From assembly GCA_900314875.1 (NCBI GenBank), contig OMWX01000004.1, forward strand, positions 1-64,000: a stretch of DNA of 64,000 bases. The letters are read 5' to 3'. The DNA is from an uncultured Actinomycetes bacterium. GTDB taxonomy: Bacteria > Actinomycetota > Actinomycetes > Actinomycetales > Bifidobacteriaceae. Below the pieces are notes generated by a model. That model was not told the DNA's origin. It was given only the letters and a program-made list of their open reading frames with translations, and made no database searches. Below, one piece after another: positions 35,922 to 36,597 of the stretch (position 1 is the stretch's first letter; every line of letters starts with the position of its first letter). Made by a program: the position numbers and the translations under genes.

Positions 35922-36003
35922 GAATCGCTCGGATATTGAAAAGGGGCGCACAAGCGTCCGAATAGTTATGAAAGGCAAAAAATGAAAGGTCTTATTTATC
36001 GCG
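35922..36003 (+). repeat. Duplicated junction segment, copy 2
   Basis: Second copy of the segment at 35214. An extra G (AAAAGGGGCGC versus AAAAGGGCGC) shifts the frame of the small-protein remnant here, so only its spacer and the permease start remain useful. Confidence 0.85.
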
Positions 36004-36597
36004 ACGCGCTTGTATGGTACAGGCGTTATCTGCGCATTCCGCTTTTTATCATGGTTCCGGGCGGCATCATCGTGTCGCTGACTCTGAAAGCGTCCGGCGT
36101 AATCGTGCAGGAATCCGGTTTCGGGTTTCTCATGTTTTTGCCCTTAAACTTGCTTTTTTTTTTTTTTTTTTTTTTTTTTTTTGCTTCCGTTTTCTGCGAA
36201 AAAGATTGTCATGTCCAGAATGATTATGTTTGCGGGCTTTCAATTTGCCTGTTTTCTGTATTCTTCCCTGTGCGGAGTTATTTCATATCTTATATATGCG
36301 GAATATCCGCTGATGTCTTACGTTGTGTTTGCGTTTGTTATGCTGGCGTTCAGTTTGATCGGGATGCTTGTTGTTGTTCCTTTCCCGTATCAGCTCGGCG
36401 GACGAGGCGTGCAACAGGTAGTGATGTTTATCTTTTTTATGCCTCTCATGATTGCGGGGCAGCTTCAAAATCTCGGCGTTTCTCAGGAAACAATGACGAA
36501 GATATTTTTGTATGCTGCCATTATTTTTCTTATTGTCTTGCCGTTTGCGTCTTTCAAGTTTTCCGTGCGATTTTTTCAGAAAAAAATTATCTGCTGA
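35982..36597 (+). pseudogene. ABC-2 type permease, copy C, split by T29 (possibly phase-variable)
   Basis: The first part (MKGLIYRDALVWYRRYLRIPLFIM to PLNLL) matches copy A, then a T29 tract (36154-36182) codes poly-Phe and throws translation out of frame. The rest of a normal permease (LPFSAKKIVMSRMIMFAGF to FSVRFFQKKIIC) continues in the +1 frame to 36597. Removing one T (T28) or adding two joins both parts into about 204 residues, close to the 209 of copy A. The tract occupies the place of the conserved EKENRDKYLRT loop. The remainder is undamaged, favouring an on/off switch over simple decay. Confidence 0.75.
36154..36182. repeat. T29 homopolymer tract inside permease copy C
   Basis: Twenty-nine consecutive T preceded by CTTGC, the same lead-in as the T20 tract at 49114 (CTTGC) and close to that at 52912 (TTTGC). 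The longest tract in the window. Confidence 0.95.

Follow-up and report, generated by a model that had tools for sequence, protein, structure and literature searches.

Bacterial genomes seldom contain homopolymers of more than about 10 bases. Among the described systems that are closest to the locus analysed here is sabA of H. pylori, which carries a CT tract in the coding sequence and a T tract in the promoter, and which illustrates that expression can be under the control of a long T run (PMC4081817). In insect endosymbionts, genes whose frame is broken by poly(A) are rescued by slippage during transcription, 12–50% of the transcripts being restored (reviewed in PMC5009743). In the yeast ligase mutant cdc9-EEAA, strand-biased homopolymer insertions arise from the defective maturation of Okazaki fragments (PMC11461686).

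The locus under study is a long T run embedded in the third permease gene (permease C) of a small ABC-exporter operon, located in a window of 64,000 nucleotides (the whole stretch of DNA that was analysed) from a member of the Bifidobacteriaceae, whose genome assembly comprises 1.47 Mb in 12 contigs, is 90% complete and has about 52% A+T. As in sabA, a long T run is present, and a change of its length by slippage could alter expression; however, the sabA tracts belong to an adhesin locus whose length variants, and the effects of these, have been measured (PMC4081817), whereas here about 51 replication-polar tracts of 16–65 T, mostly intergenic, were disclosed, and the one in permease C destroys a conserved loop. 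The likeness to the endosymbionts lies in a homopolymer that breaks the frame of a coding sequence, part of the message of which may be restored by RNA polymerase slippage; nevertheless, those genomes exceed 70% A+T (PMC5009743), whereas the present one, at a much lower A+T content, has T-only runs of at least 16 on the leading strand, mostly intergenic. The yeast mutant shares with this genome insertions into runs that favour one replication strand, a bias ascribed to lagging-strand processing, and may be regarded as a partial precedent for a lagging-strand mechanism. Still, it is a laboratory mutant showing +1 events, in which insertions of T rather than A in the nascent lagging strand are favoured and the bias fades with run length (PMC11461686), whereas in our genome the nascent lagging strand would carry A and the runs reach 65.

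Organization of the ABC-Exporter Operon

The operon consists of genes for an ATP-binding protein, permease A, a 76-aa membrane ORF, permease B and the disrupted permease C, with the following features (window coordinates):

33298–33312 (+): G15 tract, 130 nt ahead of the start of the ATPase gene; the genome has only two G runs of at least 11
33443–34333 (+): ABC transporter ATP-binding protein, TTG start at 33443, preceded by AGGAGG at 7 nt; nearest NCBIfam model PmtA, cut-off not reached
34330–34959 (+): permease A, intact, 209 aa, ABC2_membrane_5 (PF13346), loop QIDEKENRDKYLRT
35025–35255 (+): ORF for a small membrane protein of 76 aa, not matched by any family above its cut-off
35203–35295 (+): source of a duplication, upstream of permease B (91–95% in two blocks)
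35272–35910 (+): permease B, intact, ABC2_membrane_5 (PF13346), loop DDDDKFNWEKYLRT
35912–36005 (+): second copy of the duplication, upstream of and into permease C (91–95% in two blocks)
35982–36173 (+): N-terminal half of permease C, ATG at 35982, 59–61% identity to copy A
35982–36620 (+): permease C frame as sequenced (T29), 212 aa, leaving the permease frame after the tract
36154–36182 (+): T29 tract in permease C, sense direction
36181–36597 (+): C-terminal half of permease C, +1 frame, TGA at 36595–36597, PF13346 profile positions 69–205

The other G run of at least 11 in the genome (stretch L080) is likewise intergenic, between two divergent ORFs.

The PF13346 family includes Pmt-like and lantibiotic-immunity-like exporters, and the ATPase encoded beside these permeases is nearest to PmtA among the NCBIfam models, albeit below the cut-off. 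Permeases A and B match the family over their whole length (E 3.6e-15, positions 1–204, and E 4.8e-18, positions 1–205, respectively). Permease C differs in being out of frame and in the absence of the loop preceding the LPxS motif: the whole profile is not found in any one frame, and only positions 69–205 are matched, by the C-terminal half in the other frame (2.3e-10 for this half alone).

The T29 tract begins 172 nt into permease C, in a window where T12 words occur 52 times, compared with a mean of 0.34 in dinucleotide shuffles. An earlier note on this DNA had described the gene as intact in two frames joined by the tract, and the analysis confirmed this split, the downstream half lying in the +1 frame and both halves being otherwise open and permease-like; the composition of the C-terminal half is still coding-like. 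The frame arithmetic of the same note also held, since T28 or T31 (one T less or two more) would join the halves into 204 codons, close to the 209 aa that it correctly gave for the intact paralogue A. In the frame as sequenced, no early stop is met, and reading continues into an out-of-frame tail up to 36620. The count of exactly 29 T is nonetheless not reliable, since the assembly has N gaps at such T runs; an error is quite possible, and little weight should be given to the idea that the gene is just one base away from open.

A Conserved Loop Replaced by the Tract

The homologous anchors AAY ... CTTCCG span 51 nt in copy A and 34 nt in copy C. On the basis of this comparison, the tract replaces the loop, as the earlier note had stated; the loop has been deleted and not merely interrupted by added bases, and simple slippage alone does not account for the net loss of 17 nt. 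The segment missing from permease C, which precedes LPxS, reads QIDEKENRDKYLRT in permease A and DDDDKFNWEKYLRT in permease B and is highly conserved between the two (D.K.N..KYLRT); in the order-wide homologues it is present, although variable in sequence. In ABC-2 type exporters, the coupling helix is the cytoplasmic segment between TM2 and TM3. An AlphaFold model of permease A, which served as a hint alone given its low confidence (pLDDT 48), places residues 64–73 in a short helix between two long helices. With the coupling role assigned to the loop from family knowledge and from this model, the joined T28/T31 product would carry about nine Phe in place of the presumed ATPase-coupling segment. 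A sequence search of the PDB returned nothing relevant.

No relatives of permease A were found in 38 relatives or in 84,980 GTDB species; because no sister species with the operon was found, the ancestral sequence of permease C is read from paralogues A and B alone. The region upstream of permease C duplicates that upstream of permease B, whereas the first 109 nt of the gene match permease A at 87%. This mosaic structure suggests that the paralogous permeases recombine with each other.

Distribution and Length of the T Runs

The genome contains 51 T runs of at least 16. Of the 188 further family genomes that were searched, two contain a single such run and the remaining 186 lack them altogether. 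In a phylum sample of 295 other genomes, many such runs were detected in one only (G493), which was rejected as an independent tract-rich genome: its sampled runs are artefacts that lie near contig ends, most of them adjoining the Illumina P5/P7 adapter. The adapter sequence found beside the contig-end T runs of G493 (stretches L169–L182) represents a contamination of a public assembly that mimics genomic poly-T. Judging from its acetolactate synthase, whose closest named relative is that of Pseudoscardovia radai (68%), the host is a divergent genus of the Bifidobacteriaceae, for which a single genome was found. No description of polar long T tracts in bacteria was found in the literature, although the coverage left out most subscription journals and this absence is weak evidence.

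Besides the tract in permease C, the window harbors the following T tracts:

10–31 (+): T22 tract near the start of the contig; the AATTTTTAA-T run recurs at the end of contig C1
5379–5399 (+): T21 tract, intergenic
5515–5527 (+): T13 tract, intergenic
49114–49133 (+): T20 tract in intergenic DNA, some 110 nt upstream of an ORF for a small secreted peptide; 5' flank in common with the tract at 52912
52912–52924 (+): T13 tract, 5' flank similar to that at 49114

The sequence AATTTTTAA followed by a T run is located both at the start of the window's contig (C7, T22 at 10–31) and at the end of the reversed C1 (C1:1–56); the two contigs are probably neighbours broken at the T tract. The 5' flank common to the tracts at 49114–49133 and 52912–52924 consists of CAAGGGG, then CGCCATAYTGYTTGC. 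The secreted-peptide ORF that follows the former is lactococcin 972-like by eye, and a 678-aa ORF comes next.

The lengths of the T runs are bimodal. When T and A runs are counted together, 1988 have length 5 and 17 have length 8, five fall between 9 and 15, and 38 reach at least 16; the listed T runs measure 16–65, most commonly about 20–22. About 50 of 54 tracts are intergenic according to a simple codon-usage gene caller, the others being located in permease C, in a lexA-like gene (antisense T65) and in two doubtful ORFs, so permease C harbors the sole long T tract lying within a gene in the sense direction. Strong hairpins were found in 14/47 upstream flanks vs. 4/47 downstream flanks, and thus precede about a third of the tracts; most tracts, including that of permease C (upstream z −0.7), are not flanked by a strong hairpin.

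Other repeats are also abundant. Short tandem repeats reach 98 per 100 kb, compared with 8–42 in five relatives, and tandem duplications with a period of 12–30, counted over the whole window and sampled stretches, 75 per 100 kb, compared with 2.5–28 in the same number of relatives (about 3 to 30 times more).

Replication Polarity of the T Runs

All the T runs (51/51) lie on the inferred leading strand; for the small contigs with a single tract, which are not placeable on replichores by themselves, the strand was assigned from the GC skew. The direction of the runs is uniform within each contig, with the exception of C2 and C5. In C2 it changes from − to + within the interval 7–113 kb, which includes dnaA (45.7 kb), where the sign of the GC skew also switches; in C5 the change, from + to −, falls at 413–441 kb, which we infer to be the replication terminus. 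The sign of the GC skew fits the T-bearing strand being the leading one in 17/19 tract-bearing stretches, and is near zero in the other two. In 415 kb of leading strand, 38 T runs of at least 16 were counted vs. no A run of that length. The same polarity is shared by the few di- to tetranucleotide arrays (8/8), GT, GTT, CTT, CCT, ATTT and AGT arrays being present on the leading strand and their complements absent.

Since 74% of the genes are themselves on the leading strand, the two polarities have to be disentangled. Given such a bias, 51/51 polar T runs have p = 2e-7. Moreover, the gene upstream of the tract is co-oriented with it in 36/48 cases (75%), which equals the gene bias (p = 1.0); for this reason, the polarity of the T runs tracks replication, not transcription. 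Transcription, in the form of terminator U-tracts, was rejected as the sole cause of the polarity, a quarter of the tracts (12/48) following an opposite-strand gene. Terminator-like hairpins with T runs of at least 16 number five on the leading strand and none on the lagging strand, although these are small numbers.

The same data bear on the possibility that the T run of permease C, or the number of its T, stems from the sequencing or from the filling of gaps, in which case the true gene may be intact. The N gaps flanked by T runs and the contigs ending in T runs are what is expected from short reads at homopolymers, and the poly-T of G493, mostly beside adapter sequence, shows how such runs can arise. 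On the other hand, the tracts of our genome are located within contigs, flanked on either side by genomic sequence and free of adapter (the exceptions being those at the ends of C1 and C7), and their polarity follows dnaA, the GC skew and the flip in C5, none of which is known to an assembler. An artefact is, on balance, improbable.

A Possible Mechanism of Tract Expansion

The T runs are polar, bimodal in length, restricted to this lineage and biased towards intergenic regions. The reading that we favour, to which a probability of about 0.7 can be assigned, is a lineage-specific, replication-polar expansion of homopolymers, of which the T29 tract would be a local product and permease C a casualty. 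According to this scheme, once a T run exceeds about 8–10 it would undergo replication slippage and grow to about 20 or more. A leading-strand T run is also lagging-strand template, and the nascent strand that slips would therefore be poly(A); the strand bias might thus come from errors in the A-rich nascent lagging strand, either during the synthesis of Okazaki fragments or during their maturation. A template hairpin located just beyond the run would stall the nascent strand, which might help in roughly a third of the cases. The event in permease C would also have taken away the conserved cytoplasmic loop and put the gene out of frame. T runs arising inside genes are presumably purged; that the one in permease C has survived suggests weak selection on this copy.

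The loss of the PolA flap nuclease was rejected as a cause, the 5'-3' exonuclease domain being present. LigA (C6, near 12 kb; stretches L142/L148) carries in its adenylation domain a Ser/Gln-rich low-complexity insertion of about 45 residues that is absent in the compared relatives, and its KIDG catalytic motif is intact despite the insertion. In contig C5, near 115.8 kb (L058, 1455–2474, −), the antisense T65 turns the C-terminus of the lexA-like gene product into 22 Lys followed by a tail of 15 residues; should LexA be impaired, SOS polymerases could be constitutively on, with a possible link to the repeat expansions.

It might also be imagined that the leading-strand T tracts are not passive products of slippage, but polar chromosomal elements maintained for replication, segregation or termination, with a role like that of other polar motifs. 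Some of their traits would be in keeping with this idea, namely the length floor near 16, the gap at 9–15, the intergenic location and a frequency of about one per 29 kb, although we consider it unlikely.

Fate of Permease C

The earlier note had left two readings of the tract, an expansion fatal to both the loop and the gene, which the data favour, and a translational on/off switch, which they do not support. According to the latter, slipped-strand mispairing at T29 would turn permease C on (T28, T31) and off (T29, T30). Such phase variation agrees with the frame arithmetic and with the permease-like character of both open halves, and what still speaks most for regulated variation is the G15 tract ahead of the ATPase gene. 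However, the in-frame form would still be devoid of the conserved loop, the off frame does not meet an early stop, and no second long T tract exists within a gene in the sense direction. Furthermore, the tract is not specific to contingency genes: it belongs to a genome-wide, leading-strand, mostly intergenic class, which argues for a general process. Phase variation therefore appears quite unlikely, even though the length of the tract may vary between cells.

The weakest alternative, i.e., that permease C is functional owing to RNA polymerase or ribosome slippage on U29 and to a tolerated shortening of the loop, is very unlikely, since the coding-like composition of its C-terminal half and the endosymbiont precedent (long A runs restoring 12–50% of transcripts, and slippage already at 9 A or T; PMC5009743) have to be set against a missing segment that is highly conserved between A and B, is present in homologues across the order, and would be replaced by a stretch of Phe.

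Under the expansion reading, permease C is a third, most likely non-functional permease beside two intact copies. Since transcription slippage on long A/T runs can restore frames (PMC5009743), slippage of RNA polymerase on U29 is likely to yield some in-frame mRNA, as a by-product and not as an adapted switch.

Conclusions

The presence of a frame-breaking homopolymer does not automatically identify a phase switch, and the genome-wide background should be checked first. In this divergent member of the Bifidobacteriaceae, about 51 runs of 16–65 T on one replication strand amount to a natural record of mutation that tells the slipping strand and the direction of slippage, by means of which strand-specific homopolymer instability would become testable outside yeast mutants.
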